NCBI RefSeq assembly: GCF_003053845.1
Contig: NZ_QAYG01000004.1
Location: forward strand, 62,001-126,000
Direction: 5' to 3'
Length of the DNA stretch: 64,000 bases
Source of the DNA: Breoghania corrubedonensis
GTDB taxonomy: Bacteria > Pseudomonadota > Alphaproteobacteria > Rhizobiales > Stappiaceae
The notes beneath the pieces are model-generated. The model was not told the origin of the DNA and made no database searches. It saw only the letters and a list, made by a program, of their open reading frames with translations. Shown one piece after another: positions 1,210 to 63,960 of this stretch (positions are counted from its first letter, which is position 1; every line of letters starts with the position of its first letter). Position numbers and translations under genes: made by a program.

Positions 1210-2304
1210 ATGACGGTTGGTTTGACCCTTTGGCGCTACTTCGCGATCAGATTTCTCATCGCGATCCTGGGATTGTTCCTGTTCGCAGCGGTGCTGATCT
1301 TCATCTTCGATTTCCTTGAACTCGTTCGCCGCGGTGGCGACCGGGAAGGCTTCACCGTGCTCCGCGTCGCGCTGATATCGCTGCTGCGCATACCGGTCCT
1401 CCTGGAACAGGTCCTGCCTTTCGCAACGCTGTTCGGCGCGATCCTCGCTTTCGTGACCTTGAGCCGCAGCCTCGAACTCGTCATCGCGCGCGCGTCCGGC
1501 ATGTCGGTCTGGCAATTCATCGCCCCCGCCCTGATCGTTGCCATCTTTCTGGGTGCGCTCGCGATCGTGGCCTACAATCCCCTGGCGGTCGCCTTGAAGG
1601 ACAAGTCCGACCAGCTCAGCGTGGATCTTTTCGGCAATCAGGAGAAGGTGTTGCTACAAGCCTCCAACAATGCCTGGCTGCGCCAGGACGGACTGGACGG
1701 CGAAACCATCCTCCATGCCAGCCAGTCGACCGATCAGGGCCTGCATCTTTATGGCGTCACCATCTTCGCCTTTGATAAAAAAGGCATTTTCCGCGAACGC
1801 GTGGAGGCAAAAGAAGCGACGCTCGGCGATGGCGCGTGGCATCTCAAGGATGCAATCGTCTATACGGCCGACGATGACCCAAAGACCTACGCGTCCTATC
1901 TGGTCTCCACCTATCTCGGTCCCCTGGAGGTGCGCCAGAGCATCGCATCTCCCGAATCGGTTTCGTTCTGGGACCTTCCCAGCCTGATCGAACTCGCGCG
2001 CAGAGCAGGATTGCCAGCCTACCGCTACACCCTTCAATACGAGACATTGTTCGCACGTCCGCTACTGCTTGCCGCAATGGTGCTGATCGCGGCAGCAGTT
2101 TCCCTCAGGGTATCGCGTTTTGGCGGTTTAGGACGAATGATTCTGGGTGGAATATCAGCGGGGTTCGTGCTTTATGTGCTCACTGAACTTGCGAAGGATC
2201 TTGGTGGTGCCGGAATCGTGTCTCCGGTGGTCGCCGCGTGGTCTCCGGGGATAGTAGCGACTTTGATGGGTTTCACGATCCTATTGCATCAGGAGGACGG
2301 CTAG
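1210..2304 (+). CDS. lptG: LPS export ABC transporter permease LptG
   Basis: Second permease of LptB2FG, the LPS extractor in the inner membrane. The 364-residue product has the same architecture as its upstream neighbour: N-terminal helices, a central periplasmic domain (about 130-260) and three C-terminal helices including the stretch near LLLAAMVLIAAAVSLRV. The lptF-lptG-lptD order and tight spacing support the call. Its TAG stop shares one base with the GTG start of lptD, which suggests translational coupling. Confidence 0.93.
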   Translation: MTVGLTLWRYFAIRFLIAILGLFLFAAVLIFIFDFLELVRRGGDREGFTVLRVALISLLRIPVLLEQVLPFATLFGAILAFVTLSRSLELVIARASGMSVWQFIAPALIVAIFLGALAIVAYNPLAVALKDKSDQLSVDLFGNQEKVLLQASNNAWLRQDGLDGETILHASQSTDQGLHLYGVTIFAFDKKGIFRERVEAKEATLGDGAWHLKDAIVYTADDDPKTYASYLVSTYLGPLEVRQSIASPESVSFWDLPSLIELARRAGLPAYRYTLQYETLFARPLLLAAMVLIAAAVSLRVSRFGGLGRMILGGISAGFVLYVLTELAKDLGGAGIVSPVVAAWSPGIVATLMGFTILLHQEDG

Positions 2305-4721
2305 TGTCGGGTTCGTCCGTTCTCCCGCCCAACAGGGTCGGCGTCCGACACCCTGGCCGTGCCTTCGGGTGCGGGCTTAAGGGCGCGTTGCGCGGCTCCA
2401 TTTCGCTTGTCGCGGTGCTGGCCGTTCTGGCCTCGGCGCCGGGTGCTGTTCTTGCGCAGGCCCAGGACGACAGCACCATCGAGAAGATGCTGACGCGCAA
2501 TGCGGATCCGAAATCCCAGATGCTGCTGGAGGCAACAGAACTCGAGTACAATTTCGACAAGGACATCGTTTCCGCGATAGGCGACGTCCAGATCTATTAC
2601 GAAGGCAACACGCTGGAAGCGGACCGGGTCACACTGGATCGCAAGAAGGCGCGCCTCTACGCGACTGGCAATGTCCGCCTCACGGAGCCGGAAGGCAACG
2701 TGATCGAGAGCGACAGTCTGGAACTCAGCGACGATTTCCGAAATGGCTTCGTTCGCCAGCTCCGCGTCGAGACGATCCAGCGCACCCGTTTCACCGCCGA
2801 GAGCGCCGAGCGCAAGAACGGTGAGACGACAACGTTCAAGAACGGCATCTACACGGTCTACACCAAGCCGACCAATCCTCCGGACAAGCCGCCGCTTTGG
2901 CGCATCAAGGCGACCAAGATCGTCCACAAGGAGAAAGAGCGGACGGTCTATTACGAGGGCGCGCGTCTGGAATTCTGGGGCGTGCCGATTGCCTATCTGC
3001 CCTTCATGTCGCATCCCGATCCCACGCTGAAACGCAAGTCGGGCTTTCTGACGCCCACGACCGTCTATGACGAAAAGGTCGGCGTCGGCGTCTCCGTGCC
3101 CTATTACTGGGTACTGGGACCGGACAAGGATCTGACATTTACCGCGACGCCATTGTCCAAACAGGGGCCTCTACTGGAGGCCATGTGGCGCCAGCGGCTT
3201 GAAAACGGCAAGTATTCCATCTCGCTCGCCGGCATCCACCAGGCAAAACCTGAGAATTTCTCCGGTTCTTCGGGGGATCGCGAGTGGCGCGGATATGCGA
3301 ACACCAAGGGCGAATTCACGATCAACGAGCGCTGGAAATGGGGCTGGGACCTTTCCCGCATGTCCGATCGCGCGTTCGTCAAGGATTATGAGATCGACAG
3401 CAACAGCGACGCGTTGACATCCAGCGTCTATCTGACGGGATTGAGCGAGCGCAACTACTTCGATGTCCACGCCTACGCCTTCCAGATCACGCAGGAAGAC
3501 GATCCGGACTCCGGTGACGCCAACGCAGGTGCGCCGTTCTCCGATGTTGGAGCAAACCTGCAGGACAAGCAGCCCATTGTTCATCCGGTCATCGACTACA
3601 GCTACATCTGGGACAACCCCGTGGTCGGCGGTGAGCTGTCGTTTGCGGGCAACCTGACAAGTCTCACCCGGAACGAGACAGATGCCTTCGCCTATAACGG
3701 CATTCGTCGCTTCCGTGGTGTCGAAGGCACGTTCACACGCACTTCGGTGAAAGCGCAGTGGAGGCGGACCCTGATCGATCCGATCGGTCAGATGTTCACG
3801 CCGTTTGCCTACGTGAAGGCGGATCTCTACTTCCTGCAGTCGGCGGACAAGAATGTTTCCACGCTGACCGACGAGGCGTTCGTTGCCCGCGCAATGCCCG
3901 CCGTGGGACTGGAATACCGCTATCCCTTCCTGATCACCACGGGCGGTTCCAGCCATGTGATCGAGCCCATCGCTCAGATCATCGTGCGCCCGTCGGAGCA
4001 GCGGATAGGCGAATTGCCGAACGATGACGCACAAAGCCTCGTGTTCGATGACACCAATCTTTTCCAGTGGGACAAGTTCTCCGGCAACGACCGCTCCGAG
4101 GGTGGTACGCGCGCCAATGTGGGCTTCCAGTACAAGGGCCAGTTCCATGGCCTGGGCTCGGTCAACGCCCTGTTCGGCCGCTCGTTCCATATCGCGGGTA
4201 CGAATTCCTACGCGACGGACGATGTGCTGGCGACGGGAACGAATTCGGGTCTGGAGTCGGATGACTCCGATTACGTCTCGCGCGTCTACTTCGACACCAA
4301 CCTCGGCCTGCGCTTCGGCGCACGGGCGCGCTTTGACAACGACAATTTCGCAGTCCGTCGGGCTGAGGTTCAGGCGAGCGGCACACGCGGCCCATTCAGT
4401 GCGTCTCTTGGCTACGCCTTCCTCGGTGCCAAACCCGCACAAGGGATCGATGACGATCGCGAGGAGATCCTCGGCGCGGGTTCTTTGCGACTGCTGACGA
4501 ACTGGCGCGTTTTCGGCTCCGTACGCTACGATCTTCGCAACTCCACGACGGTGCGTGATGCTGTCGGGCTTGGTTACGACGATGAAGGCTTCTCTGCCTC
4601 GCTTGCCTACGCCGAAGACCGCAGCCGCAACGACGGAGATCCCGTGGACAAGACGATCTACCTGCGCATCGGTCTGCGCACGTTGGGCGACACCCAGCTA
4701 TCGACCAACGCCGATCGATAG
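2304..4721 (+). CDS. lptD: LPS assembly outer-membrane protein LptD
   Basis: LptD (OstA/Imp) is the outer-membrane beta-barrel that, with LptE, places LPS in the outer leaflet. The reading frame is open from 2238, but the chosen start is GTG 2304: a perfect AGGAGG lies at 2291-2296, 7 bases upstream, and the lptG stop overlaps this codon. That gives about 805 residues. A hydrophobic signal segment ending around VLAQAQ is followed by an OstA/LptA-like N-terminal domain with repeated E-A-D-x-V and G-N-V-x-L strands, then a long barrel region rich in aromatic residues. LptE is not visible nearby. Confidence 0.93.
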   Translation: MSGSSVLPPNRVGVRHPGRAFGCGLKGALRGSISLVAVLAVLASAPGAVLAQAQDDSTIEKMLTRNADPKSQMLLEATELEYNFDKDIVSAIGDVQIYYEGNTLEADRVTLDRKKARLYATGNVRLTEPEGNVIESDSLELSDDFRNGFVRQLRVETIQRTRFTAESAERKNGETTTFKNGIYTVYTKPTNPPDKPPLWRIKATKIVHKEKERTVYYEGARLEFWGVPIAYLPFMSHPDPTLKRKSGFLTPTTVYDEKVGVGVSVPYYWVLGPDKDLTFTATPLSKQGPLLEAMWRQRLENGKYSISLAGIHQAKPENFSGSSGDREWRGYANTKGEFTINERWKWGWDLSRMSDRAFVKDYEIDSNSDALTSSVYLTGLSERNYFDVHAYAFQITQEDDPDSGDANAGAPFSDVGANLQDKQPIVHPVIDYSYIWDNPVVGGELSFAGNLTSLTRNETDAFAYNGIRRFRGVEGTFTRTSVKAQWRRTLIDPIGQMFTPFAYVKADLYFLQSADKNVSTLTDEAFVARAMPAVGLEYRYPFLITTGGSSHVIEPIAQIIVRPSEQRIGELPNDDAQSLVFDDTNLFQWDKFSGNDRSEGGTRANVGFQYKGQFHGLGSVNALFGRSFHIAGTNSYATDDVLATGTNSGLESDDSDYVSRVYFDTNLGLRFGARARFDNDNFAVRRAEVQASGTRGPFSASLGYAFLGAKPAQGIDDDREEILGAGSLRLLTNWRVFGSVRYDLRNSTTVRDAVGLGYDDEGFSASLAYAEDRSRNDGDPVDKTIYLRIGLRTLGDTQLSTNADR

Positions 4722-42871: not shown

Positions 42872-43213
42872 CTATGCGACTTCCAGTTCCACGAGTTGCA
42901 TCTCGTCGCCGCCGACCGGATCAAGATTGTACCCGCCACATTGCGGGCAGGCGGAAAGGCGGGACTCGACCTCGACCTGAGCACCGCAATCAAGGCATTT
43001 CGACAATCCGGGAGGTTGCTCGATTTCCAGCAGTGCCCCTTCCGCGAAAGTCTGTCTGCTCGTGACATCAAAAGCGTAACGCAACGATTCGGGATCCAGG
43101 CAACTGAAACGTCCGATCACGAGCTTCAACCTGTGAACCCGGTCGAAGCCCCTCGCCTTGCGTTCGCGCGCCAGGATACGAAAAAGGGATTCGCAAATCG
43201 TGAGTTCGTGCAT
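42872..43213 (-). CDS. hypA: hydrogenase nickel incorporation protein HypA
   Basis: Delivers nickel to the hydrogenase large subunit with HypB. Start at ATG 43213 gives MHELTICESL, the conserved opening with the nickel-binding His2; the frame is open 10 codons further. About 113 residues with a zinc site made of CLDCG and CPQCG. It stands apart from hypBFCDE, 15 kb away, and follows fdhF after a large hairpin, so it may have its own promoter. Confidence 0.95.
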   Translation of the reverse strand: MHELTICESLFRILARERKARGFDRVHRLKLVIGRFSCLDPESLRYAFDVTSRQTFAEGALLEIEQPPGLSKCLDCGAQVEVESRLSACPQCGGYNLDPVGGDEMQLVELEVA

Positions 43214-43460: not shown

Positions 43461-45638
43461 TTAGGCCGGCTCCTGCTCCGCCAGAACGGAGGCGTTTTCT
43501 ACCGCCCCGCTCAGGTTGCCCTTCAGCGTCGCATAGAGTTCCTGGACGTGATTCTCGGCCCAGATCTGATCATCGATCGATTCCAGCTTGACGGCGGAAT
43601 ACTTGTATTCCGGGGTCTTGGAAGTCGGGTCGAAGCTCTCGCCGGTAAGCTCGTTACAGGCACCGATCCACCACTGGTAGGTCATGTAGACCGCACCCTT
43701 GTTGGTGCGCTCCGTGAGCTTCGCCCGGGTGATGATCTTTCCGCGACGCGAGGAGACGTAGACGAGTTCCTTGTCCTTGATGCCGAGACGCTTGGCATCT
43801 TCGGGGTTGATCGTCACGAAGCCCGGCTCGTCCGCCAGCGTCTGCAACGCCGAGCAGTTGCCGGTCATCGAACGACAGGAATAGTGCCCCACCTCGCGAA
43901 CCGTGCACAGAACCAACGGGAAATCGTCGTCCGTCTGGTCCATCGGCGGATGCCATTCGCAGGCATAGAGCAGGCCCTTGCCATTCGGCCGCTGGAACTT
44001 GTTACCTTCGTAGAGGTACTTGGTTCCGTGGGCGTCATCAAGGTCCGTGCACGGCCACTGAACGTAGCCGAGGCCTTCCATTTTCTCGTAAGTGGCACCG
44101 TAGAAGATCGGGGTCAGCTCACGCAGCTCGTCCCAGATCTCCTTGGTGTTCTCGTAGTGCATCGGATAGCCCATCGCCGTGGAGATTTCGGAGATGATCT
44201 CCCAGTCGTGCTTGCACTCGCCCTTCGGCGGCACCGCCGCTTCAAAGCGCTGGAACGTACGGTCGGCGGCCGTAAAGACGCCTTCATGTTCGCCCCAGGA
44301 CGTCGCAGGCAGAACCAGGTCGGCGAACATCGCCGTCTTGGTCATGAAGATGTCCTGAACGATGACAAACTCCATGCCTTCCAGCGACTCGCGGACCGAG
44401 GTCAGATCCGGATCGGTCTGAGCCGGGTCTTCGCCCATGATGTAGTAGCCCTTGAGCTTGCCATCCTTCACCAGATGCGGCACGTCGGTGACCATGGCAC
44501 CGATCTTGTCGGGCAGCTCCTTCACGCCCCAGCGCTTGGCGAACTTGGCGCGGATCTTGGCGTCCGTGACGGGCTGATAGCCCGGGAAGACGTTCGGAAG
44601 CACACCCAGATCGCACGAACCCTGCACGTTGTTCTGGCCACGGACCGGGCCGACGCCCACATTCGGACGGCCGAGGTTGCCGGTCAGCAGCGCCAGGCCC
44701 GAAAGGCCCTTCACCACATCGACGCCCATCGTCCACTGCGTGACGCCCATGCCCCACAGAATCGTGGCGGAAGGAGCCGCAGCGTAGATACGCATCGCCT
44801 CGCGAATATCATCGGGATCAAGGCCGGTGATTTCCGAAACGTATTCCGGCGTGTATTTGGAGACGATCTTCTTGTATTCGTCGAATCCTTCCGTGTGCTT
44901 GGCAACGAAGTCCTTGTCGTAGAGGCCTTCATTGATCAGCACATTGGCAAAGGCGTTGACCAGAGCCATGTTCGAGCCGTTCTTGAGCGGCAGGTACAGA
45001 TCGGCAAGGCGCGCCGTCTCGATCTTGCGGGGATCGCAGACGATGACCTTGGCGCCCTTTTCCTTGGCTTCGATGACGCGCCGGGCAATGACCGGGTGGC
45101 TGTCGGCGACGTTGTAACCGAAGACCAACAGGCATTCTGTGTCACCGATCTCCTGAATGGAGTTCGACATGGCACCGTTGCCGAGCGTCACGGCAAGGCC
45201 GGCGACGGACGGCGCATGGCAGACGCGAGCGCAGTTGTCGACATTGTTGGTGCCGATGGCGGCGCGGGTGAACTTCTGCATGACGAAGTTCGTCTCGTTG
45301 CCGCAACCGCGCGATGAACCGGTCGTCATGATCGCATCCGGGCCATACTTCTCCTTGATTTCGGAGAACTTCGTGGCCGCGATCTTGATCGCTTCGTCCC
45401 AGGTAATCCGCTCGAAATCCTTGTCGCGCGAACGGCGATACATCGGGTACATCAGCCGCGGCGTAAGGATTTTCGTATCGTTGACGAAGTCGAAGCCGTA
45501 GTGCCCCTTCAGGCAAAGCCGACCTTCGTTGGTGATACCGTCGAGCGGTTCCACACCAACGATCTTTTCGCCCTCGACCAGCAGATTGAACTTACATCCC
45601 GTCCCGCAATACGGGCAGACGGACATGTGCTTTTCCAT
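43461..45638 (-). CDS. fdhF: formate dehydrogenase H, cysteine form (FdhF)
   Basis: Molybdopterin enzyme that oxidises formate to CO2 and, in formate hydrogenlyase, passes electrons to the hydrogenase through ferredoxin-like subunits. The 725-residue cytoplasmic protein has no signal peptide. A [4Fe-4S] site is made by C8, C11, C15 and C42 with Lys44 nearby. The catalytic residue is Cys140 (codon TGC) in CARVCHAPSVAG, exactly where E. coli FDH-H has selenocysteine 140, with the conserved His141 next to it. AAGGTGAAATT precedes the ATG. It lies 27 bases after hydN in one operon. Confidence 0.94.
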   Translation of the reverse strand: MEKHMSVCPYCGTGCKFNLLVEGEKIVGVEPLDGITNEGRLCLKGHYGFDFVNDTKILTPRLMYPMYRRSRDKDFERITWDEAIKIAATKFSEIKEKYGPDAIMTTGSSRGCGNETNFVMQKFTRAAIGTNNVDNCARVCHAPSVAGLAVTLGNGAMSNSIQEIGDTECLLVFGYNVADSHPVIARRVIEAKEKGAKVIVCDPRKIETARLADLYLPLKNGSNMALVNAFANVLINEGLYDKDFVAKHTEGFDEYKKIVSKYTPEYVSEITGLDPDDIREAMRIYAAAPSATILWGMGVTQWTMGVDVVKGLSGLALLTGNLGRPNVGVGPVRGQNNVQGSCDLGVLPNVFPGYQPVTDAKIRAKFAKRWGVKELPDKIGAMVTDVPHLVKDGKLKGYYIMGEDPAQTDPDLTSVRESLEGMEFVIVQDIFMTKTAMFADLVLPATSWGEHEGVFTAADRTFQRFEAAVPPKGECKHDWEIISEISTAMGYPMHYENTKEIWDELRELTPIFYGATYEKMEGLGYVQWPCTDLDDAHGTKYLYEGNKFQRPNGKGLLYACEWHPPMDQTDDDFPLVLCTVREVGHYSCRSMTGNCSALQTLADEPGFVTINPEDAKRLGIKDKELVYVSSRRGKIITRAKLTERTNKGAVYMTYQWWIGACNELTGESFDPTSKTPEYKYSAVKLESIDDQIWAENHVQELYATLKGNLSGAVENASVLAEQEPA

Positions 45639-52460: not shown

Positions 52461-54083
52461 ATGACACCCTCACTCTTGCCAATCCTGATCCTGATCGTTC
52501 CTCTGGTGGCTGCCCTCGGGCTTCTGCTCACCCCGACACGGAACCTGACGACCAGGACCTGCGAAGGGGTCCATATCGGCTCCATCGTGCTCATCGTGTT
52601 GCTGTCGCTGGGGCTGGCCGCTTCGGTCCTGGCAGGCAACCATCCCTCAAGCCTCGGCGGTTGGCTCTATGTCGACGCGCTGGGCGTGATCTTCCTGCTG
52701 ATCATCGGCGTCGTCGGTCTCATGACCGGCCTCTACTCGATCGGCTACATCCGGCACGACCTTGAAGAAGGCCTACTCGACGCGCATCGCGTGAAGATCT
52801 ACTACGGCTTCTTCTCCCTGTTCCTCTTCACCATGCTGCTGTCGGCAACCGCCAACAACATCGTGATGATGTGGGTCGCGGTAGAAGCCACCACGCTCGG
52901 TTCCGCCTTCCTGGTCGGCATCTATGGCCAGAAGTCGTCGCTGGAAGCGGCCTGGAAATACGTGATCATCTGCACCGTCGGCGTCGCCTTCGGTCTCTAT
53001 GGCACGGTCCTGGTCTTCGCCAACGGTGCAGAAGTGCTGTCCGATCCCCATCAGGCGGTTCTGTGGACGTCGCTTGCCGAAAACGCCAAGCTGCTCGACC
53101 CCTCGCTGATGAAGATCGCCTTCGTCTTCGTTCTCGTCGGCTTCGGCACCAAGGCCGGCCTCTTCCCGATGTACGCCTGGTTGCCCGACGCCCACTCAGA
53201 GGCGCCGAGCCCGGTTTCCGGCCTCCTCTCGGGCGTCCTGTTGAAATGCGCGCTGTTCGTCATCATCCGCTACTACGCCCTGATGATCCGCTCGATCGGC
53301 CCGGAATTCCCGCAGACGCTGATCCTGGTGCTTGGAACCCTGTCGGTGATCGTCGCCGCCATGCTGTTCTACGTGCAGAAGGACCTGAAGCGGAAGCTCG
53401 CCTACTCCTCCGTCGAACATGTCGGCTTCATCGCCGTCGGTCTCGGCCTTGGTGGCCCGCTGGGCGTCGCCGCAGCGCTGCTGCACTCCATCAACCACTC
53501 CCTCGCCAAGGCACTTCTGTTCTGTGGCTCGGGCAACGTGGTGATGAAGTACGGCACCCGTGATCTCGGCAAGGTCAAGGGCATGCTCCGCCTCGCCCCG
53601 GCAAGCGGCGTGCTGCTGATGGTCGGCGCACTGGCGCTGTCGGGCTTCCCGCCCTTCAACGTCTTCGTCAGCGAATTCATGATCTTCACCGCCGGAATCA
53701 AGGCTGGCTACTGGATCTTGATGCTGGTGCTGCTGGGCTTCTTCACGGTTACCATCGCCGGCTTCGTGCAGATCATCTCCGGCTCCGTCCTCGGCAAGCC
53801 CGAGGAGAACGCCAAGGTCGGCGACGTCGGCAAGCAGACCCTCATCCCTCTCGGCATCCTCGCCGCCATGGTGCTGATCATGGGCTTCGCCGTTCCCACC
53901 CCGATCGCGCGACTGGTTTCACAGGCCAGCGCCATCGTCCTGGACAGCGGTGATCCCATCGTCGTCAAGGCGCCCTGGTCGCTCTTCGGCAACGAGGAGG
54001 CCACCGTCGCGGAAAAGGCCGGCAACCTTATCGTCACTCCCGCGGCGGCGGCTGAAACCGCACAGAATACGGAGACCAAGTGA
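52461..54083 (+). CDS. hyfF: hydrogenase-4 component F (HyfF), antiporter-like membrane subunit
   Basis: Third antiporter-like subunit, also Hyf-specific. The 540-residue protein carries FGTKAGLFPMYAWLPDAHSEAPSPVSGLLSGVLLKCALFVI, the KDLKRKLAYSSVEHVGFI lysine helix and the HSINHSLAKALLFC segment. Its last helix is followed by a soluble tail of about 55 residues rich in Ala, Glu and Thr. The stop TGA overlaps the hyfG start, coupling membrane and catalytic modules. Confidence 0.95.
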   Translation: MTPSLLPILILIVPLVAALGLLLTPTRNLTTRTCEGVHIGSIVLIVLLSLGLAASVLAGNHPSSLGGWLYVDALGVIFLLIIGVVGLMTGLYSIGYIRHDLEEGLLDAHRVKIYYGFFSLFLFTMLLSATANNIVMMWVAVEATTLGSAFLVGIYGQKSSLEAAWKYVIICTVGVAFGLYGTVLVFANGAEVLSDPHQAVLWTSLAENAKLLDPSLMKIAFVFVLVGFGTKAGLFPMYAWLPDAHSEAPSPVSGLLSGVLLKCALFVIIRYYALMIRSIGPEFPQTLILVLGTLSVIVAAMLFYVQKDLKRKLAYSSVEHVGFIAVGLGLGGPLGVAAALLHSINHSLAKALLFCGSGNVVMKYGTRDLGKVKGMLRLAPASGVLLMVGALALSGFPPFNVFVSEFMIFTAGIKAGYWILMLVLLGFFTVTIAGFVQIISGSVLGKPEENAKVGDVGKQTLIPLGILAAMVLIMGFAVPTPIARLVSQASAIVLDSGDPIVVKAPWSLFGNEEATVAEKAGNLIVTPAAAAETAQNTETK

Positions 54084-55798
54084 TGGACATGTTCGTTCAA
54101 GACCGTGTCGGCGGCGAATACCTGACCGCGCTGCGTACCGTTCTGCCCAATGCCATCGTCAACGAGGAATGGCAGACCCCGCGGCAGGTCACGATCACAG
54201 TCACCGCCGACGCCCTCGCCGATGTCATGAAGACGCTCTACTACGAGCACTACGGGTGGGTTTCGGTCGTGGTTGGCAACGACGAACGTCCCCTCAACGG
54301 ACACTTCGCCGTCTACTACGTCCTCTCGATGGAGGGGCCGCAAAAGTGCCACATCGTGGTGCGCGTCGAGGTGTCCGCCATTACCCAGGAATGGCCGTCG
54401 GTAACCCCCGTCGTGCCGGCCTGCGTATGGGGAGAACGCGAGGTGCGCGACATGTTCGGTCTGACCCCCGTGGGTCTGCCGGACGCCCGCCGCCTCGTCC
54501 TGCCGGACGACTGGCCTGATGATCTGCATCCGCTGCGCAAGGACGCGATGGACTACAGGACCCGGCCGGCCCCCACCCAGGACGACGAGACCTACGAGTT
54601 CATCAACGATGCAAAGCAGGAAACGACGATCGTCCCGATCGGCCCCCTGCACATCACCTCCGACGAACCGGGCCACTTCCGCCTCTTCGTCGACGGTGAG
54701 GACATCATCGATGCGGACTACCGGATGTTCTACGTCCACCGCGGAATGGAAAAGGCGGCCGAAGCCCGCATGGGCTACAACGAGGTCACCTTCCTCGCCG
54801 ACCGTGTCTGCGGCATCTGCGGCTACGCCCACTCGGTCGCCTACACCACCTCGGTGGAGAACGCGCTGGGCGTGGTGGTTCCCGAGCGTGGCCAGGCGAT
54901 CCGCGCGATCCTGCTGGAGACCGAGCGGCTGCACAGCCATCTGCTGAACCTCGGCCTCGTCTGCCACTACACAGGCTTCGATTCAGGCTTCCAGCAGTTC
55001 TTCCGCGTCCGCGAAAAGGCGATGGTCCTGGCCGAAGTGCTGACCGGTTCGCGCAAGACATACGGCATGAACCTGATCGGCGGCGTGCGTCGCGACATTC
55101 TCGGCGATCAGGCGATCGAAACCCGCCGGGTGGTCGCGGAGCTGCGCGAGGACGTCAACCGTCTGGTCGACATCCTGCTGGAGACAGCCAACATCACCGG
55201 CCGCGTTGTGGGTGTGGGCAAACTCGACAAGCAGGTCGCCCGCGACTTCAGCCCCGTCGGCCCGATGGTGCGCGGATCCGGCTTCGCCCGCGACACGCGG
55301 TCCGATCACACGTTCGCCGGCTACGCGTCCGTACCGTTCACCCCCCGCTCGCATGACGGCTGCGACGTGCTCTCGCGCACCTTGGTGCGCATCGAGGAGG
55401 TCCATGACAGCCTCAACCTGATCGAGGCGCTGCTCGACGTCGCGCCCGGCGGCCGGATCCTCACCGAGGACTTCGAGTACAAGCCGCACAAGTTCGCTCT
55501 CGGCTTCACCGAAGCGCCGCGCGGCGAGGACATCCACTGGTCAATGACCGGCGACAACCAGAAGCTCTACCGCTGGCGCTGCCGGGCCTCGACCTACAAC
55601 AACTGGCCCGTGCTCCGCTACATGCTTCGCGGCAACACGGTGTCGGATGCGGCCGTCATCGTTGGCTCTCTCGACCCCTGCTACTCCTGCACCGACCGCG
55701 TGACCGTCGTCGACGTTCGCAAGCATAGCGCCCAGACCGTCCCCTACAAGGAGATGGAACGCTACGGCCGCGAGCGCAAGGATTCACCGCTCAAGTAA
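54083..55798 (+). CDS. hyfG: group 4 [NiFe]-hydrogenase large subunit (HyfG)
   Basis: Catalytic subunit for proton reduction to H2. ATG 54083, with GGAG 8 bases upstream, is preferred to GTG 54080. The 571-residue protein fuses a NuoC-like N-terminal domain (about 1-175) to a NuoD-like domain. The nickel ligands are C243 and C246 (VCGICGYAHS) and C533 and C536 (DPCYSC). The C-terminal extension after Arg539 (CTDR then VTVVDV) matches the site cut by HycI in E. coli HycE, leaving a 32-residue peptide to be removed. Confidence 0.96.
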   Translation: MDMFVQDRVGGEYLTALRTVLPNAIVNEEWQTPRQVTITVTADALADVMKTLYYEHYGWVSVVVGNDERPLNGHFAVYYVLSMEGPQKCHIVVRVEVSAITQEWPSVTPVVPACVWGEREVRDMFGLTPVGLPDARRLVLPDDWPDDLHPLRKDAMDYRTRPAPTQDDETYEFINDAKQETTIVPIGPLHITSDEPGHFRLFVDGEDIIDADYRMFYVHRGMEKAAEARMGYNEVTFLADRVCGICGYAHSVAYTTSVENALGVVVPERGQAIRAILLETERLHSHLLNLGLVCHYTGFDSGFQQFFRVREKAMVLAEVLTGSRKTYGMNLIGGVRRDILGDQAIETRRVVAELREDVNRLVDILLETANITGRVVGVGKLDKQVARDFSPVGPMVRGSGFARDTRSDHTFAGYASVPFTPRSHDGCDVLSRTLVRIEEVHDSLNLIEALLDVAPGGRILTEDFEYKPHKFALGFTEAPRGEDIHWSMTGDNQKLYRWRCRASTYNNWPVLRYMLRGNTVSDAAVIVGSLDPCYSCTDRVTVVDVRKHSAQTVPYKEMERYGRERKDSPLK

Positions 55799-55811: not shown

Positions 55812-56360
55812 ATGTTCAAACTTTTGAAGGAAATCCTCCGCACCGGCGACGCGACCGTGCAGTACCCCTTCGCTCCCTACGAAGCGAGCAAGGACTTTCG
55901 CGGCAAGCCGGAACACGACGCGGAGAAGTGCATCGCCTGTGCGGCCTGCACCATCGCCTGTCCGCCCAACGCCATCCACATGGAAACAGACCTGGATGCG
56001 GGAACACGGACATGGTCCATCGATTACGGCCGCTGCATCTTCTGCGGCCGTTGCGAGGAATCCTGTCCCACCGGCGCCATCGGACTGACGCCGGAATTCG
56101 AACTCGCCGTGATGAGCAAGGAAGACCTCACCGTGAAGGCGGTCTTCCAGCTGGATCACTGCCGCTCCTGTGGCAAGCCGTTCGCACCCCTCAAGGAAGT
56201 CGAATACGTCGGCAAGCTTCTCGCCCAGACCGGCGGTGAAACGGAACGCAGCGCGCGCGAGGAGCAGATCCTCCACACCTGCCCCGAATGCAAGCGCAAG
56301 AACGACCTTGAGCAAGTGAGCCGGATGAAGATTGCGGCTCAGATGGAGACCTCCAAATGA
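55812..56360 (+). CDS. hyfH: hydrogenase-4 component H (HyfH), NuoI-like ferredoxin
   Basis: Carries electrons from the ferredoxin subunits to the small subunit. The 182-residue protein has two [4Fe-4S] motifs, [17 protein letters not shown] (near 39-55) and [16 protein letters not shown] (near 72-88), and a further four-Cys site, CRSCG plus CPECK, towards the C terminus. It begins [20 protein letters not shown], as in HycF/HyfH. ATGA overlap with hyfI. Confidence 0.94.
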
Positions 56361-57151
56361 ATTCTCCGTTCAACGCCCCCTTCACAACCGACGGGCTGCA
56401 GGCAAAGCCGCCCGTCGTCTCGATCCCCGATCAGGTGGCCAAAATGAAGGCCGCCCTGCTCAAGGACATCCAGCGCTCCGCCTACGTCTACCGTGTGGAC
56501 TGCGGCGGCTGTAACGGCTGCGAGATCGAGATCTTCGGAACCATCACACCGGTGTTCGATGCCGAGCGTTTCGGCATCAAGGTCGTCCCCTCGCCGCGCC
56601 ACGCCGACATTCTGCTCTATACGGGCGCGGTCACGCGCTCCATGCGGATGCCGGCGCTCAGAAGCTGGGAAGCTGCGCCCGATCCGAAGATCGTGATCTC
56701 CTACGGCGCGTGCGGCTGCACCGGCGGCATCTTCCACGACATGTATTGCGTGTGGGGCGGCACCGACAAGATCGTGCCCGTCGACGTCTTCATCCCAGGC
56801 TGCCCGCCGACGCCGGCGGCCACCATCTACGGCTTCGCGGTTGCGCTCGGCCTTCTGGGCCAGAAGCTCAAGACCCACACGCATATCGAGCAGGAAGGCG
56901 AGAGCGTTCCCGTCTCCCATCCAGATATTCCCTACAAGCTGCGCGTGGCGCTCGAGCGCGAGGCACGGCGGATGGCGGGCTATCGTCAGGGCCGCGATCT
57001 GGTGGAGGAATTCCTCGACCAGCTCGACGCCAAGGCGGCAGCGCCCCTGCCTGAACGCATGAAGCGCTTCGTCGCGAACCAGGAAGATCCCCGCCGCGCC
57101 GAGATTTTCGGATGCCTCGAAGGGATCGTCACCCAGGCAATCGGAGGCTGA
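56357..57151 (+). CDS. hyfI: group 4 [NiFe]-hydrogenase small subunit (HyfI), NuoB-like
   Basis: Holds the [4Fe-4S] cluster next to the NiFe site. The 264-residue cytoplasmic protein has [11 protein letters not shown] (C49, C52, C55), [10 protein letters not shown] and [15 protein letters not shown], supplying the NuoB-type cluster ligands. Like other group 4 small subunits it lacks a Tat signal and the extra C-terminal clusters of respiratory hydrogenases. A 110-residue C-terminal region is mostly helical and charged. Confidence 0.95.
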
Positions 57152-57154
57152 GAA

Positions 57155-57574
57155 ATGACCATGGTCGGCACCAAACGCGTCATCTTCTATCAGCTCAGCG
57201 CGAAATACATGGAGCGTGAAGAAGACATCCCGCCCGAGTCGAAGGAGGTCATGTACTACTCCCTCGCCATCGGGCACCACATCGGCGTGTTCGACTGTTT
57301 CAAGCCACAGCTGAAATGCTCCGGGGAGCTCTACGACCGGATCATCGAGGCTTTGCCGGAGGCAAGCGAGGCCCGCCGGAAGTTCGCAGGACTGCACAAG
57401 TTCGGCGAGATCATTGTCGACGCCACCCACACCAAGATGCTGTTGGCGGCGATCGAAACCCTCCTGCCCGATGCCGATCACGACATGGGCGAATGGCTCA
57501 AAGGCCTGCGCGCCTCGCTCGAAGCGATCCGCGCAGAGCCCGCGATCTATCTGATGGGGAGGATCATGGGATGA
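57155..57574 (+). CDS. hyfJ: HyfJ/HycH family formate hydrogenlyase maturation protein
   Basis: Small cytoplasmic protein of the HycH/HyfJ family, thought to assist maturation of the large subunit. The 139-residue protein starts VGTKRVIFYQLSAKYME and contains MYYSLAIGHHIGVFDCF, both family hallmarks. Its stop overlaps the start of the endopeptidase gene (ATGA), in keeping with a shared role in processing. Confidence 0.92.
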   Translation: MTMVGTKRVIFYQLSAKYMEREEDIPPESKEVMYYSLAIGHHIGVFDCFKPQLKCSGELYDRIIEALPEASEARRKFAGLHKFGEIIVDATHTKMLLAAIETLLPDADHDMGEWLKGLRASLEAIRAEPAIYLMGRIMG

Positions 57575-58029
57575 AACGCGTGGTGTTCACCGTCGGAAAC
57601 CCGATGCGCGGCGACGATGCGGCGGGCCCTCTGCTGGCGGAAATGCTGGAAAACGAACCAGCGCCGGGCTGGGACGTCATCGACGGCGCCGATGTCCCGG
57701 AAAACCACACGCACGCCGTGCGCAGGCTGGAGCCGGATCAGGTGCTCGTCGTCGACGCCGCAGCGATGGGGCTGAAACCGGGAGAAATCCGCATAATCGA
57801 TGAAGGTGACGTCGCGGACAACTTTCTCATCACGACGCACGCCATCCCACTGAATTTTCTCATTCAAAGTCTGAAGGAGACAGTCTCAGACATCCAGTTT
57901 CTCGGGATACAGCCCGAGGATACGAGCTTCTATGGCCCCGTTACCCCCGTCGTCCGCGAAGCCGTCGCAACGCTTCACAGGCATCTCGTGTCGGGAGGAG
58001 CCCCGGAAGACTATCAACCGGTCGCATGA
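57571..58029 (+). CDS. hycI: hydrogenase maturation endopeptidase (HycI type)
   Basis: Removes the C-terminal peptide of HyfG once nickel is inserted. The start is ATG 57571 with GGGAGG 8 bases upstream. The 152-residue protein has the nickel-sensing residues in GNPMRGDDAAG (Asp near 16), VVDAAAMG and the TTHAIPL histidine. Unlike E. coli, where hycI lies in the hyc operon and hyf has no dedicated protease, here it is part of the hyf operon. Confidence 0.93.
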   Translation: MKRVVFTVGNPMRGDDAAGPLLAEMLENEPAPGWDVIDGADVPENHTHAVRRLEPDQVLVVDAAAMGLKPGEIRIIDEGDVADNFLITTHAIPLNFLIQSLKETVSDIQFLGIQPEDTSFYGPVTPVVREAVATLHRHLVSGGAPEDYQPVA

Positions 58030-58101: not shown

Positions 58102-59013
58102 ATGGTAACGGGACAAAAGCAAGACGCACAGATCAAGTTAGACGCACTAACTCCGATTGAAATGGAAGAGAAGGCCGAACTGGCCGGCATCAGCAAAGCC
58201 AAGATGCCCGCCATGCCGATGTTCCTCCTGGCGATAGCCGCCGGCGCGTTCATCGCTCTCGGCGGCATGTACTACTGCATCATCGCTGCCGACCCCAACC
58301 TCGGTTTTGCCGCCAAGAAAATGGTCGGTGGCATCGCCTTCTGTCTCGGACTGGCCCTAGTTCTCGTGGCTGGCGCCGAGCTGTTTACCGGCAACTCGCT
58401 GATGGTCATGGCCCGCCTCAGCGGCCGGATCACCACGCCGCAAATCCTGCGGAACTGGATCATCGTTTGGGTTGGCAACCTTGTCGGCTCTGTCGTGATC
58501 GTCTTCATCGCCTTCATGGCGCATGAATACACGCTCAACGGCAACGGCGTCGAAACGGTGATGCTGAAAATCGGTATCGCGAAGGTATCGCTGGATTCCA
58601 CGACGATCTTCTTCAAGGCCATCATGTGCAACCTGATGGTGTGCCTGGCCGTGTGGCTCGCCTATTCCTGCCGCACTGTCGCCGACAAGATCATCGCGAT
58701 CATCCTGCCGATCTCCGGCTTCGTTGCCGCCGGCTTCGAACACTGCGTTGCCAACATGTACTTCCTGCCCTTCGCCTATCTCCTGAAGGAGACAGGCAAT
58801 GTCCCGGACGGCATGGACGTTTCGGCGCTGACCATTGCCAGCATCGCCCACAACATCCTGTTCGCTACAGCTGGCAATATCGTCGGCGGCGGTCTCTTCG
58901 TCGGCGCCCTGTACTGGGCCATCTATCGCAAGGGCATGGGCGGAACCGCACCGGCTCCCTCGAAGCAGGAAACGACAAGTGCCTCGAGCGGCCAGGTGGC
59001 GGCTCAGCAATAA
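58102..59013 (+). CDS. focB: formate/nitrite transporter family channel (FocA/FocB)
   Basis: Pentameric inner-membrane channel that would import or export formate. The 303-residue protein has six helices and family motifs ELFTGN, IMCNLMVCLAVWLAYS (pore-side region) and FEHCVANMYF. AAGGGAGA precedes the ATG. It lies 72 bases after hycI and probably ends the hyf operon, as focB does in E. coli. The symbol is by context; FocA and FocB cannot be separated by eye. Confidence 0.93.
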   Translation: MVTGQKQDAQIKLDALTPIEMEEKAELAGISKAKMPAMPMFLLAIAAGAFIALGGMYYCIIAADPNLGFAAKKMVGGIAFCLGLALVLVAGAELFTGNSLMVMARLSGRITTPQILRNWIIVWVGNLVGSVVIVFIAFMAHEYTLNGNGVETVMLKIGIAKVSLDSTTIFFKAIMCNLMVCLAVWLAYSCRTVADKIIAIILPISGFVAAGFEHCVANMYFLPFAYLLKETGNVPDGMDVSALTIASIAHNILFATAGNIVGGGLFVGALYWAIYRKGMGGTAPAPSKQETTSASSGQVAAQQ

Positions 59014-59352: not shown

Positions 59353-60417
59353 TCAGCAAATGCGAGGAAGCTGCTCGCCGTTCAGCCATTCCACGACACG
59401 TTCGGAGCCGAAGCTGGTCTCAAGCCGCACAAGCTTCAAGGGATCCGCTACCACGTGGCCGATTATTGCCGCATCGCTTCCGAAAGGGGCGGCCTGCATG
59501 ACCGCCAGCAGCGCTTCGGCCTTGTCCTTTGGACAGAAGGCGAGAAGCTTGCCTTCGTTGGCGACACCCAGCGGATCGATGCCCAGAAGCTCGCAGGCTC
59601 CGCGAACCGCCGGCTTGATCGGCAGCGCCTCCTCCTCCAGCACCAGACCGACGCCGGACTGATTGGCGAGTTCGTTCAAGGTGGCAGCAAGTCCTCCGCG
59701 CGTGGGGTCGCGCAGGCAGTGGATCTCGGGCTCCGCCTCAACCATTGCCCGGATCATACGGTGAAGCGGGGCGCTGTCGCTTTCGATTGCGGTTTCGAAA
59801 TCGAGGTTCTCGCGCTTCGACAGGATGGCGATGCCATGGTCGCCGATGGATCCCGAAACCAGAATGGCATCGCCTTCCTGAATCCTGTCACCACCGATCT
59901 CCAGGCCATCTGCCAGCACACCGACGCCGGCCGTCGATATGAAGACACCATCCGCCTTGCCGCGTTCGACGACCTTGGTATCACCGGTGACGATCGGCAC
60001 CCCGGCCGCGCGCGACGCGTCGGCCATGCTCAGGACGATGCGCCTGAGATCGGCAAGCGGCAGCCCTTCCTCGATGATAAAGCTCGCCGACAGATAGAGC
60101 GGTGTCGCTCCGCTCATGGCAACGTCATTGATGGTGCCATGCACGGCGAGCGAGCCGATATCGCCACCGGGAAAGAACAGTGGCGAGATGACATAACCGT
60201 CCGTCGACATGACAAGACGACCATCGGCCGGCGGCATGACCGCCATGTCATTCCCCTGGGACAAAAACTCGTTGTCGAATGCCTGCCCGAAGATCTCGGA
60301 TACAAGCTGCGCCATGGCCCGGCCGCCGCCACCGTGGGTCATGTCGACCCGGCCATTGGCAATATCGAGCGGACGCGGGAACAGACGGGTGTCCCGTCTT
60401 CTGGGTTGTTCGTTCAT
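59353..60417 (-). CDS. hypE: hydrogenase maturation protein HypE
   Basis: Dehydrates the carbamoyl group placed on its C-terminal Cys to a thiocyanate, the source of the CN ligands of the NiFe site. The start is ATG 60417 with AAGGAGGGG just upstream; the longer open frame runs back into hypD and is not used. The 354-residue protein belongs to the PurM/SelD fold, has MTHGGGGRAM near the N terminus and DPTRGGLAATLNE in the middle, and ends in the obligatory PRIC. Confidence 0.96.
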   Translation of the reverse strand: MNEQPRRRDTRLFPRPLDIANGRVDMTHGGGGRAMAQLVSEIFGQAFDNEFLSQGNDMAVMPPADGRLVMSTDGYVISPLFFPGGDIGSLAVHGTINDVAMSGATPLYLSASFIIEEGLPLADLRRIVLSMADASRAAGVPIVTGDTKVVERGKADGVFISTAGVGVLADGLEIGGDRIQEGDAILVSGSIGDHGIAILSKRENLDFETAIESDSAPLHRMIRAMVEAEPEIHCLRDPTRGGLAATLNELANQSGVGLVLEEEALPIKPAVRGACELLGIDPLGVANEGKLLAFCPKDKAEALLAVMQAAPFGSDAAIIGHVVADPLKLVRLETSFGSERVVEWLNGEQLPRIC

Positions 60418-60439: not shown

Positions 60440-61552
60440 CTACGCCGCCGCCTTGTTCCGATGTCGGCCATAGAGCCAATGAGCCGCACAGCCGCCCTCG
60501 CTCGATACCATGCACGAGCCGATCGGTTCGTCGGGCGTGCAGGTCCGACCAAAGAGCGGGCATTGTTCCGGCCGCTTGAGCCCGCGAACCACGTCCGCGC
60601 AGGCGCACGACTTGGGATCGGGAACGGCACGATAGGGAAGCTGGAATTTCAGCTCCGCATCGAAGTCTGCATAGTCATCAGCCACCCTCAGCGCGCTGTC
60701 GGGCAAACGCCCAAGTCCACGCCATTCGAAGGCACCGCGAAGCTGAAGCGTCTCCGCGATCACTTCACGCGCCTTCGGGTTGCCAACTGCTGGAAGTGCG
60801 CGCACATAAGCATTTTCCACGCGCGGCCGGCCTTCATTGACCTGCCGAGTCAGCATCAGGATCGCCTGCAGCAGGTCGAGCGGCTCGAAGCCCGCCACAA
60901 CGATCGCCTGCCCTCTGTCGGCGAATTCCTGATAGGGCTCGATACCGATGACGGCAGAGACGTGGCCCGGCCCGATGATACCCTGCAAAGGCAGGCTCTC
61001 CCCGTCCAGGATCGCTCGCATGGCGGCCGGGGTCAGCACATGATTGCAGAAGATGGAGAAATTCGTCAGCCGCTCCGCTTTGGCGATCTTCAGCGCCATG
61101 GCGGTCGGCGGCGTCGTCGTCTCGAAGCCGATGGCGAGGAATGCGACTTCACGATCGGGATTCTCACGCGCGATTTTCAACGCATCGAGCGTCGACCAGA
61201 CCATGCGGATATCGGCCCCGGCCGCCTTGGCTCTCAGAAGGCTCATACGGTGGGAGCCGGGAACCCGCATCATGTCGCCATAGGAGCACAGGATCACCCC
61301 ATGATCGCGCGCAAGTTCGATTGCGCTGTCGACGCGCCCCACCGGGAGCACACAGACCGGGCATCCCGGGCCGTGAACAAGGCGGATGCTTTTTGGAAGC
61401 ATCTCCTCAAGGCCATAGCGCGCGATGGTATGAGTATGTCCGCCACAGAATTCCATGAACGTGTAGGAACGATCCGGCGTGCACTCGGCGTCAATCGCAG
61501 CGGCGATCTTGCGGGCGAGCTTGCCATCCCTGAATTCGGTAGCGTACTTCAT
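60440..61552 (-). CDS. hypD: hydrogenase formation protein HypD
   Basis: Iron-sulfur scaffold on which the Fe(CN)2CO group is built with HypC. The 370-residue protein has the key Cys in FMEFCGGHTHTIARYG (near residue 35), the GPGCPVCVLP motif, and the C-terminal [4Fe-4S] Cys set (CACADVVRG, ECPLFG-type CPLFGRTCTPD, and SEGGCAAHW). Its start overlaps the hypC stop by 4 bases; it is 22 bases before hypE. Confidence 0.96.
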   Translation of the reverse strand: MKYATEFRDGKLARKIAAAIDAECTPDRSYTFMEFCGGHTHTIARYGLEEMLPKSIRLVHGPGCPVCVLPVGRVDSAIELARDHGVILCSYGDMMRVPGSHRMSLLRAKAAGADIRMVWSTLDALKIARENPDREVAFLAIGFETTTPPTAMALKIAKAERLTNFSIFCNHVLTPAAMRAILDGESLPLQGIIGPGHVSAVIGIEPYQEFADRGQAIVVAGFEPLDLLQAILMLTRQVNEGRPRVENAYVRALPAVGNPKAREVIAETLQLRGAFEWRGLGRLPDSALRVADDYADFDAELKFQLPYRAVPDPKSCACADVVRGLKRPEQCPLFGRTCTPDEPIGSCMVSSEGGCAAHWLYGRHRNKAAA

Positions 61553-61800
61553 CCTGCCAGCTCCGCCAGCTTGAGTTCGCCCGCCAGTTCCCCCATTTCC
61601 CTGAGCGCATCCAGCGTTTCCTTCGCCTCCTCCGGCGAAATGCGGCTGAGAGCGAAACCCACGTGAATGAGAACGTAGTCGCCGACGACGATATTACTGA
61701 GCAACGCCAGGCTCACAGCCTTCTCGACGCCATCGATATTGACCTTGCCCATCCCGTCGGGCAGGAGTTCGACCACTTCGGCCGGAATAGCCAGACACAT
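61549..61800 (-). CDS. hypC: hydrogenase maturation chaperone HypC
   Basis: Carries the iron group from HypD to the large subunit. The start is ATG 61800, giving MCLAIPAEVVEL with the essential Cys2; the frame is open upstream into hypF but Cys2 must be next to the initiator. 83 residues, with the IHVGFALSRIS block typical of HypC. AAGGGAAAG precedes the ATG. ATGA overlap with hypD. Confidence 0.96.
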   Translation of the reverse strand: MCLAIPAEVVELLPDGMGKVNIDGVEKAVSLALLSNIVVGDYVLIHVGFALSRISPEEAKETLDALREMGELAGELKLAELAG

Positions 61801-61817
61801 CGTTCTTTCCCTTCGTA

Positions 61818-62975
61818 CTAGAACGCCTCTTCGAGGCGTTGCGCTGCCGCAAACGCCTGCCCGAGACTGACCGCCGGATCGCCCGGACCGAGCCGATCGG
61901 GTTTCAGGATCTGCACCCCCTGGGCACCGAGCCTGTAGGAAAGATCCCTCGTGAGGACCTTGTTGAAGAAGCAGCCGCCGGAATAGACGATCCCCGTGAC
62001 TGGCAGCGGCAACCGGTGCATGGAGACGACCACCCACTCCGCAACCGCCGCAGCCAGCGTTCCGTGAAAGAGATTGGCGCCTTCCACCGGATCGCTCACG
62101 TCGGCCAGGGCCGAAAGCAACGGCCGCAGGTCGAGTTCCCCCTCACCGGAGATACGCCAGCCGGTCGGAAGTTCCTTCGGTTCGCTCACCAGCGCCTCCA
62201 GTGCCATCGGCGCCTGCCCCTCGTGTTCGGCGACCTCGCAAACGCCCAGAAGCCCGGCAGCGGCATCGAATAGCCGGCCCATCGATGTGGTTCGCGGGCA
62301 GTTGAGGCCCTTGTCCATCACGAGAGCGAGATGCCGCGCGCCCTCGATGTCAGGCCAGCGGGCGGAAATATCCGCCCCCCGCCCGATCGCGTGAAGCGCC
62401 GCGGCCCCCATGCGCCAGACCTCGCGGGCAGCCACGTCGCCCCCCGGCTGAAGAATGGGATGAAGATGCCCCGCCCGGAAATACGTGCCGCCGTCGACGA
62501 ACAGCAGTTCGCCACCCCAGGCCTCGTTTTCGGGTCCGAGACCGAATCCGTCGAAGGACAATCCGAGCACGGGAGCATCGTGAGCGTTTTCAGCCACCAC
62601 CGCCGCCACATGGGCATGATGGTGCTGCACCGGGATCAGTTCGGCACCGAGCTCTTCCGCCAGCACGGCCGCGAAACGGGTGGAGGGGAAATCCGGGTGA
62701 AGATCGTGAGCGACCGCCGCCGGCACCACGCCGAGCCGCTCTATCAGCGCCCACGCCATCTCTTCCATGGCCATGATCGCACCCGGCGTGTCGGTGTGGC
62801 CGACATCGCGCGATACATGGGCCTTGTCCCCGTCGATCACCGTGATCGTGTCTTTCAGGAAGGCACCGAGGCCGATGACCGGCGGCAACCGGCGTGGGAG
62901 ATCGACGACGATGTGAACAGGATCGTCCGCCCCCCTCGCCTGCTTCGCCATTCTGCGTTCGGCCGCGCTTGCCAT
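61818..62975 (-). CDS. hypF: short HypF: C-terminal carbamoyltransferase region only
   Basis: HypF normally makes carbamoyl-adenylate and moves the carbamoyl group to HypE. Full-length HypF is about 750 residues: acylphosphatase, zinc fingers, YrdC-like and Kae1-like domains. This protein has 385 residues and shows only the Kae1-like part: GLGAFLKDT, the metal-binding HHHAH (near 118), LSFDGFGLGPENEAWGGELL and YSGGCFFNKVL. No acylphosphatase or zinc-finger motif is seen, and the frame does not continue upstream because hypB ends 3 bases before it. A comparable short HypF1 is known, from memory, in Cupriavidus. Confidence 0.85.
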   Translation of the reverse strand: MASAAERRMAKQARGADDPVHIVVDLPRRLPPVIGLGAFLKDTITVIDGDKAHVSRDVGHTDTPGAIMAMEEMAWALIERLGVVPAAVAHDLHPDFPSTRFAAVLAEELGAELIPVQHHHAHVAAVVAENAHDAPVLGLSFDGFGLGPENEAWGGELLFVDGGTYFRAGHLHPILQPGGDVAAREVWRMGAAALHAIGRGADISARWPDIEGARHLALVMDKGLNCPRTTSMGRLFDAAAGLLGVCEVAEHEGQAPMALEALVSEPKELPTGWRISGEGELDLRPLLSALADVSDPVEGANLFHGTLAAAVAEWVVVSMHRLPLPVTGIVYSGGCFFNKVLTRDLSYRLGAQGVQILKPDRLGPGDPAVSLGQAFAAAQRLEEAF

Positions 62976-62977
62976 GA

Positions 62978-63895
62978 TCAGGCCGCCCTTGTGGCAAGCA
63001 GCCCGGCACGACGTTCGCGCACCCAGTCGAGCCAGGCTTCAAGCCCCTCGCCGGTCGTGGCGGATAGCTGAAGGATCTGCAGCGACGGGTTCACACGACG
63101 CGCCATTCCCATGCAACGAGCAATATCGAACTGAACGTAGGGCGCAAGATCGATCTTGTTCAGGATCATCAGGTCCGCAACGGCGAACATGTCGGGATAC
63201 TTGATCGGTTTGTCCTCGCCTTCGGTGACGGACAGGATCACCACCTTTGCCGCCTCACCAAGATCGAAAGCGGCTGGACAGACGAGATTGCCGACATTCT
63301 CGATGAAGAGCACCGAGCCCTCCTCCGCGGAGAGCCCGTTCGCGGCATCCTCGATCATCGCCGCATCCAGGTGGCACCCCTTGCCCGTGTTGACCTGGAT
63401 GGCCGGCGCACCAGTTGCGCGAATCCGGTCGGCGTCGTTGGAGGTCTGCTGATCACCCTCGATGACAGCGACGGGGAGTTCCGATTGAAGGGCCTTGACC
63501 GTCTCGCACAAAAGCGTCGTCTTGCCCGAACCCGGGCTCGACAGCAGATTGAGGGCGAGCACGCCATCCGTTTCGAACCTTGCGCGGTTTCGCGAAGCCC
63601 GACGGTCATTTTCGCCAAGCACCGCTTCCTCCATCCGGATCACATGGGTCTGATCGAGACCGGGCACCGAGACACCGGCTTCTCCCTCTCCATAGTGGAT
63701 GTGGGACGCACCGCGCTCGAGCTCGTGCCCATGCCCGTGCCCATGTTCGTGACCATGCGCGACACCAGCCGCGTGGAGCGCGGCGTGTTCGGCCTCGCTC
63801 ATTCCCTCATGATCATGATGGTGGTGATGGCCGTGATCGTGGCCATGGCCTTGACCTTCGACGGTGGCCTGACCGCAACCGCAAACGCTACACAT
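62978..63895 (-). CDS. hypB: hydrogenase nickel incorporation GTPase HypB
   Basis: GTPase that inserts nickel into the large subunit with HypA. The start is ATG 63895 (MCSVCGCG), placing the high-affinity nickel motif CxxCGC at the N terminus; the frame is open 10 codons further. The 305-residue protein has a His-rich stretch (about 16-62, over 20 His) able to store nickel or zinc, then the GTPase with P-loop [10 protein letters not shown], the metal-binding Cys/His pair in GKGCHLD, and NKIDLAPYV. First gene of hypBFCDE. Confidence 0.96.
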
Positions 63896-63906
63896 GGCGC
63901 CTAACT

Positions 63907-63960
63907 CCGATACCCGCTGCGTCACCTTCGCACGCGAGCCGCGTCAGAAGCGGGTATCGG
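63907..63960. promoter_or_regulatory. 12-bp perfect inverted repeat upstream of hypB
   Basis: CCGATACCCGCT (63907-63918) and AGCGGGTATCGG (63949-63960) are exact complements 30 bases apart, beginning 11 bases upstream of the hypB ATG. It may be a leader stem in hypB mRNA or the terminator of a gene beyond the window. Confidence 0.5.

Follow-up and report, generated by a model that had tools for sequence, protein, structure and literature searches.

The window analyzed here, a stretch of 64,000 nucleotides from Breoghania corrubedonensis, contains hydrogenase maturation genes in the order hypB, short hypF, hypC, hypD and hypE, together with a formate hydrogenlyase gene set (FdhF, hyf/hyc subunits, HycH, HycI and a formate transporter; Table 1). 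The hypA gene lies ~19 kb from this hyp cluster. The start of hypE near 60417 is an estimate, the listed open reading frame extending to 60630. The sequence of the hypE product ends in ...NGEQLPRIC and therefore includes the carbamoyl-accepting cysteine, and the sequence of the hydrogenase large subunit retains four metal-ligand cysteines; because both features are present, the usual cyanide-bearing cofactor is expected.

Table 1. Coordinates of features in the window and of related features elsewhere in the host genome (G000; C4 is the contig of the window) and in other genomes.
Feature	Position	Strand	Basis or remark
Short HypF, Kae1-like carbamoyltransferase half only, 385 aa	61818..62975	-	Pfam, TIGR00143, predicted fold
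hypB	62978..63925	-	NF007775/TIGR00073 above cut-off
hypC (MCLAIP...)	61549..61803	-	PF01455
hypD	60440..61552	-	PF01924, 482 bits
hypE	59353..60417	-	TIGR02124 over residues 94-425 of ORF; sequence
hypA, away from other hyp genes, beside fdhF	42878..43213 (G000:C4:104878-105213)	-	PF01155, 104.6 bits
HycE/HyfG-type hydrogenase large subunit	54080..55798	+	sequence; RVCGICG and DPCYSC metal-ligand motifs
Formate hydrogenlyase iron-sulfur subunit	55812..56360	+	NF009053 above cut-off
Small subunit (HycG/NuoB-like)	56357..57151	+	family scan
HycH maturation protein	57155..57574	+	NF011664 above cut-off
HycI maturation peptidase	57571..58029	+	TIGR00142 above cut-off
Formate transporter (FocA/FNT family)	58102..59013	+	TIGR04060/TIGR00790, just under cut-offs
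Formate dehydrogenase H-like FdhF, hydrogenase partner	43461..45638	-	reading of translation alone
NodU/CmcH-type carbamoyltransferases, G000	C4:274207-274761; C4:167646-168158; C1:711531-712037		two on the contig of the window
Second hypA-like gene, G000	C1:1003937-1004266		far from hyp cluster
Short hypF of congener (L178; G413, contig C40)	6851-8007		four frameshifted pieces
Truncated fdhF, G413 C40	1594-3564		beside focA
focA, G413 C40	3551-4095		beside fdhF
HypF with internal deletion (L023; G361)	1231-2976	-	581 aa
Short hypF match (L027; G153)	C109:1182-2231		one in-frame TAG
Stand-alone acylphosphatase near short hypF (L027)	607-900
Stand-alone acylphosphatase near short hypF (G251)	C41:14417-14638

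The hypF frame is intact and begins with ATG, and its product corresponds to the Kae1-like carbamoyltransferase half of HypF alone. Pfam domains HypF_C (residues 31-129; 78.7 bits) and HypF_C_2 (138-373; 202.5 bits) both score above cut-off, while the same scan of the protein finds no acylphosphatase, zf-HYPF or YrdC domain, nor the C-terminal YrdC-like domain (PF16861) that marks NodU/CmcH carbamoyltransferases. The NCBIfam model TIGR00143 (hypF, 741 positions) aligns over positions 367-740 only, scoring 214 bits where the cut-off is 466, and the protein falls outside the full-length HypF equivalog with its complete domain set. It is instead a stand-alone Kae1-like half inside a hyp operon, of the Cupriavidus HypF1 type, and its transferase domain has the metal and substrate residues. 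The structure predicted by AlphaFold is a confident single domain (pLDDT 93.2, pTM 0.90) that most closely resembles the Kae1-like half of HypF proteins of solved structure (TM 0.80-0.85; 0.85 for 3vti). The full-length HypF proteins of E. coli, Caldanaerobacter (3VTH/3VTI) and Thermococcus (4G9I) share this fold at 27-30% identity, and their active-site motifs are those of the window protein, which, unlike them, has no internal channel and none of the acylphosphatase, zinc-finger and YrdC-like domains. The Pfam, TIGR00143 and fold results thus bear out the first-pass annotation, which had described 385 residues covering the Kae1-like region only. Its remark that the gene is packed between hypB and hypC with no room for the missing half also holds, the gaps being 2 bases from the end of hypB upstream and 14 bases to hypC downstream. 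The missing domains, which might have been encoded in frame upstream, are not there; the whole open frame amounts to 406 codons and hides no N-terminal half.

The first-pass annotation had suggested that the activated carbamoyl group comes from a separate full HypF, from an unlinked N-terminal half, or by way of a different donor or mechanism, and had proposed a genome search for a second hypF or stand-alone acylphosphatase and YrdC-like genes. The host genome (5.33 Mb, draft, 21 contigs, 100% complete by markers) contains one HypF-C copy, and no zf-HYPF match above cut-off was found in it. A profile of the HypF N-terminal half, built from 12 full-length proteins, retrieved from this genome nothing better than Sua5 (40 bits) and a stand-alone acylphosphatase (32 bits), compared with 570 and 573 bits for two intact full-length controls. 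A second full HypF and an unlinked N-terminal half therefore appear to be excluded as far as sequence allows. The proposed search did yield a stand-alone acylphosphatase, located near lipB and a phosphoglycolate-phosphatase-like gene and away from the hyp genes, and the housekeeping Sua5, which is the one PF01300 match above cut-off and the only clear stand-alone YrdC protein, so that a dedicated extra YrdC gene in this genome was rejected. The [NiFe] hydrogenase large subunit of the window (HycE/HyfG-type) is the only one in the genome, the other PF00374 match (368 aa) probably being NuoD, and HypX has no clear homologue there (best match 22 bits). Three NodU/CmcH-type carbamoyltransferases, each with its own YrdC-like domain, are also encoded in this genome, as is a second hypA-like gene, despite the single [NiFe] hydrogenase.

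The short form is not peculiar to this genome. In a class sample of 385 genomes, 28 gave a HypF-C match and 6 of these had the short form; a scan of named genomes recovered 80 HypF loci, 26 of them short with no N-terminal half within the flanks (a 27th short locus, L119, is interrupted by the end of its contig and is not counted among the 26). These 26 further short forms occur in Alpha- and Betaproteobacteria (e.g., Caenispirillum, Magnetospirillum, Defluviicoccus, Insolitispirillum, Gallionella, Nitrotoga, Nitrosomonas, Sulfuritalea and Methyloversatilis), persisting across numerous genera as well as in genomes reduced to 1.2-1.4 Mb. The N-terminal half was missing from all 22 short-HypF genomes searched whole with the profile (best 48.8 bits), whereas five full-length controls scored 490-570 bits. 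When the two search sets, which have one genome in common, are combined, it was found in none of 27 distinct short-HypF genomes (best at most 48.8 bits versus 490-573 for intact controls). Of the sources first suggested, the separate HypF and the unlinked half are thus not supported, and a different donor or mechanism is the part that stands, the 27 genomes being alike in this respect. HypE ends in PRIC at all 15 short-HypF loci that have a complete HypE, as it does in the window.

Several loci in the survey depart from the common pattern. In a congener, the short hypF overlaps the end of hypB and is broken into four frameshifted pieces; on the same contig a truncated fdhF and focA stand side by side, hypB, hypD and hypE look intact, and hyf/hyc hydrogenase genes are absent from the part read, as if the hydrogenase genes had been deleted. 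In a Bradyrhizobium-like HypF, from a single-contig genome of 8 Mb in which no other N-terminal half was found, an internal deletion has left part of the acylphosphatase domain fused to the last portion of the YrdC-like domain, followed by the entire transferase half; this protein retains full-type motifs, as expected if the deletion is young. In two small genomes (1.2-1.4 Mb, one family, f24), the strand opposite the short hypF carries a stand-alone acylphosphatase gene at a distance of ~0.3 and 1.6 kb, which may reflect chance synteny or a partner. The short hypF match of one genome (G153) contains one in-frame TAG. Another HypF (G124; L026/L047) is split across contig ends, with the first part of the N-terminal half on C313 and the remainder on C287; such a break in the assembly might be misread as a genuinely split gene.

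After removal of long-branched and redundant rows, a tree of 69 C-terminal halves places the short forms in four clades, all of them well supported and each lying within full-length HypF: Cupriavidus HypF1 together with Methyloversatilis; a group of betaproteobacteria adjoining Propionivibrio and Rhodoferax; a Gallionella/Nitrotoga/Nitrosomonas group; and an alphaproteobacterial group with the window protein, Caenispirillum and Magnetospirillum. A single origin of all short forms is rejected (p-AU 0.010), and an earlier tree of 102 rows without HypF1 gave two or three short groups. The N-terminal half thus appears to have been lost about four separate times, more than one loss being surer than the exact number. 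The short HypF is under purifying selection, with pairwise dN/dS of about 0.16-0.31 in six pairs of short forms, and the 30 short proteins do not differ from one another at any of the catalytic and metal-site residues (in the numbering of the window protein, used throughout: first and last His of HHHAH, D91, H93, D142, E156, R234, D237, H304, C335, N338 and D366). No new domain, insertion or clear shared residue gain was seen in the short proteins. Among the 62 positions that are near-invariant in 73 full-length HypF proteins, three (His57, Pro363 and Gly367) are lost in all four short clades, in which the PxNDGG motif beside the catalytic Asp becomes PGDA, PGDP or similar. The value of these three residues together as a clean marker of the short form is weakened by five full-length sisters of one short clade (L090, L105, L111, L113 and L126), which are also altered at 363 or 367 and have an SPGDA-type motif in place of PPNDGG; judging from these sequences, the motif change can come before, or without, loss of the N-terminal half. 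His57 separates the groups well, being present in 71 of 73 full-length and 0 of 30 short proteins, and may serve the missing half through docking or the channel.

The closest known counterpart is HypF1 of Cupriavidus necator (pHG1, H16_RS31625), which likewise consists of the transferase half only, lies between hypB and hypC, and has lost the equivalents of His57, Pro363 and Gly367. However, Cupriavidus also has a full HypF2, which makes HypF1 a precedent and not an explanation; the window genome has neither a second copy nor an N-terminal half. The two proteins belong to different short clades, and HypF1 serves oxygen-tolerant hydrogenases with HypX, whereas the hydrogenase of the window genome belongs to a formate hydrogenlyase and HypX is not found. 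It has been argued that HypF1 likely needs carbamoyl adenylate and suggested that enough of this compound may be available only in aerobic cells, and without oxygen HypF1 seemed to be inactive (PMC9100943). HypF1 also failed to complement a hypF deletion in E. coli, although its production was not seen there either (PMC5350229).

In full HypF, carbamoyl phosphate is converted to carbamate, the YrdC-like domain adenylates it, and the Kae1-like domain transfers the carbamoyl group to the HypE cysteine, the three sites being joined by an internal channel (PMC9654439; PMC6022934; PMC12134894). The short HypF is probably a working stand-alone HypE S-carbamoyltransferase that receives carbamoyl-adenylate from another protein not dedicated to the hydrogenase. 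It would retain the last of the three HypF reactions and have lost the first two; carbamoyl-adenylate would be made elsewhere, the likeliest candidate maker being a housekeeping YrdC-fold enzyme (Sua5 here, TsaC/Sua5/YciO elsewhere), and the short HypF would transfer the carbamoyl group to the C-terminal cysteine of HypE. That the short protein is active and takes carbamoyl-adenylate as its substrate is what we infer. Supply by another protein is chemically awkward, since full HypF channels carbamate and carbamoyl-adenylate internally and both compounds are very unstable (PMC6022934; PMC12134894). Sua5/TsaC is put forward only tentatively as the supplier; it is preferred because HypF and TobZ use the YrdC fold for adenylation and because Sua5/TsaC is universal, a universality which also means that co-occurrence cannot test this role. 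The proposed arrangement resembles TsaC/Sua5 and TsaD of t6A tRNA modification, in which a YrdC-fold adenylating enzyme and a Kae1-fold transferase are two proteins; there the product is threonylcarbamoyl-adenylate, which is passed to tRNA, and the use of such an arrangement for HypE is a proposal. A broader and more doubtful version would make Sua5/TsaC a general maker of carbamoyl-adenylate feeding both TsaD (tRNA) and HypF (hydrogenase), with this split taking the place of the fused four-domain HypF on about four occasions.

Other candidate partners were considered and rejected. The stand-alone acylphosphatase has an unrelated neighborhood in the host genome and was not detected (E<=0.001) in several short-HypF genomes. 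The TobZ/NodU/CmcH O-carbamoyltransferases resemble the short HypF in Kae1-like carbamoyl transfer from carbamoyl-adenylate, and the one sequence of this type that was read has a GDAG-type motif at the catalytic Asp; unlike the short HypF they possess their own YrdC-like domain. As general donors they fail, in spite of the three copies in the host genome, by being missing from the Caenispirillum and Nitrosomonas short-HypF genomes. No gene family specific to short loci, and hence no conserved neighbor that could act as partner, was found among gene clusters within 6 kb.

Alternatively, the short HypF could be self-sufficient, its own nucleotide site taking ATP and carbamoyl phosphate (or another donor) with no separate adenylating enzyme. 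No co-occurring supplier is seen, acylphosphatase being undetected in several Nitrosomonas genomes and roughly half of the short-HypF genomes having no NodU/CmcH-type enzyme, and the alteration beside the catalytic Asp in all four clades could be read in the same direction. This explanation is nevertheless rather unlikely, as the short proteins show no new domain, no insertion and no clear residue gain in common, the change near Asp366 extends to full-length sisters, and related Kae1-like enzymes depend on a YrdC partner for activation (PMC9654439). Manufacture or donation of the activated carbamoyl group by a protein unrelated to YrdC would fit the absence of any N-half homologue in 27 genomes, and the lability of carbamoyl-adenylate favors a dedicated partner; yet the gene clusters within 6 kb contain no family peculiar to short loci, and a partner gained at least four times ought to be more readily seen. 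This source is very unlikely. That the short hypF is a decaying or inactive remnant, leaving the hydrogenase without cyanide ligands or not made, is hardly credible given an intact window gene with a wholly kept active site, the low dN/dS of short forms and their persistence in many genera and reduced genomes, even with the broken hypF of the congener, on a contig without hydrogenase genes, and the inactivity of Cupriavidus HypF1 in E. coli.

The short kind of HypF is already known from one strain (Cupriavidus); new are its presence as the sole copy, the finding that it is widespread and arose repeatedly, and its association with a formate hydrogenlyase. The carbamoyl source of the short HypF is a question that ordinary gene removals and purified proteins can address. 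The link to formate hydrogenlyase without HypX argues against the published idea that a short HypF may work only aerobically, provided that this complex is produced without oxygen, as it is in E. coli. Full HypF has been explained by a channel that shields two labile intermediates, carbamate and carbamoyl-adenylate, on their way between its three active sites. The Cupriavidus case is explicable by its second, full HypF, but genomes whose sole HypF is short are not, and if many bacteria make active hydrogenase with the last site only, then either the channel is dispensable or the activated carbamoyl group arrives by another route.
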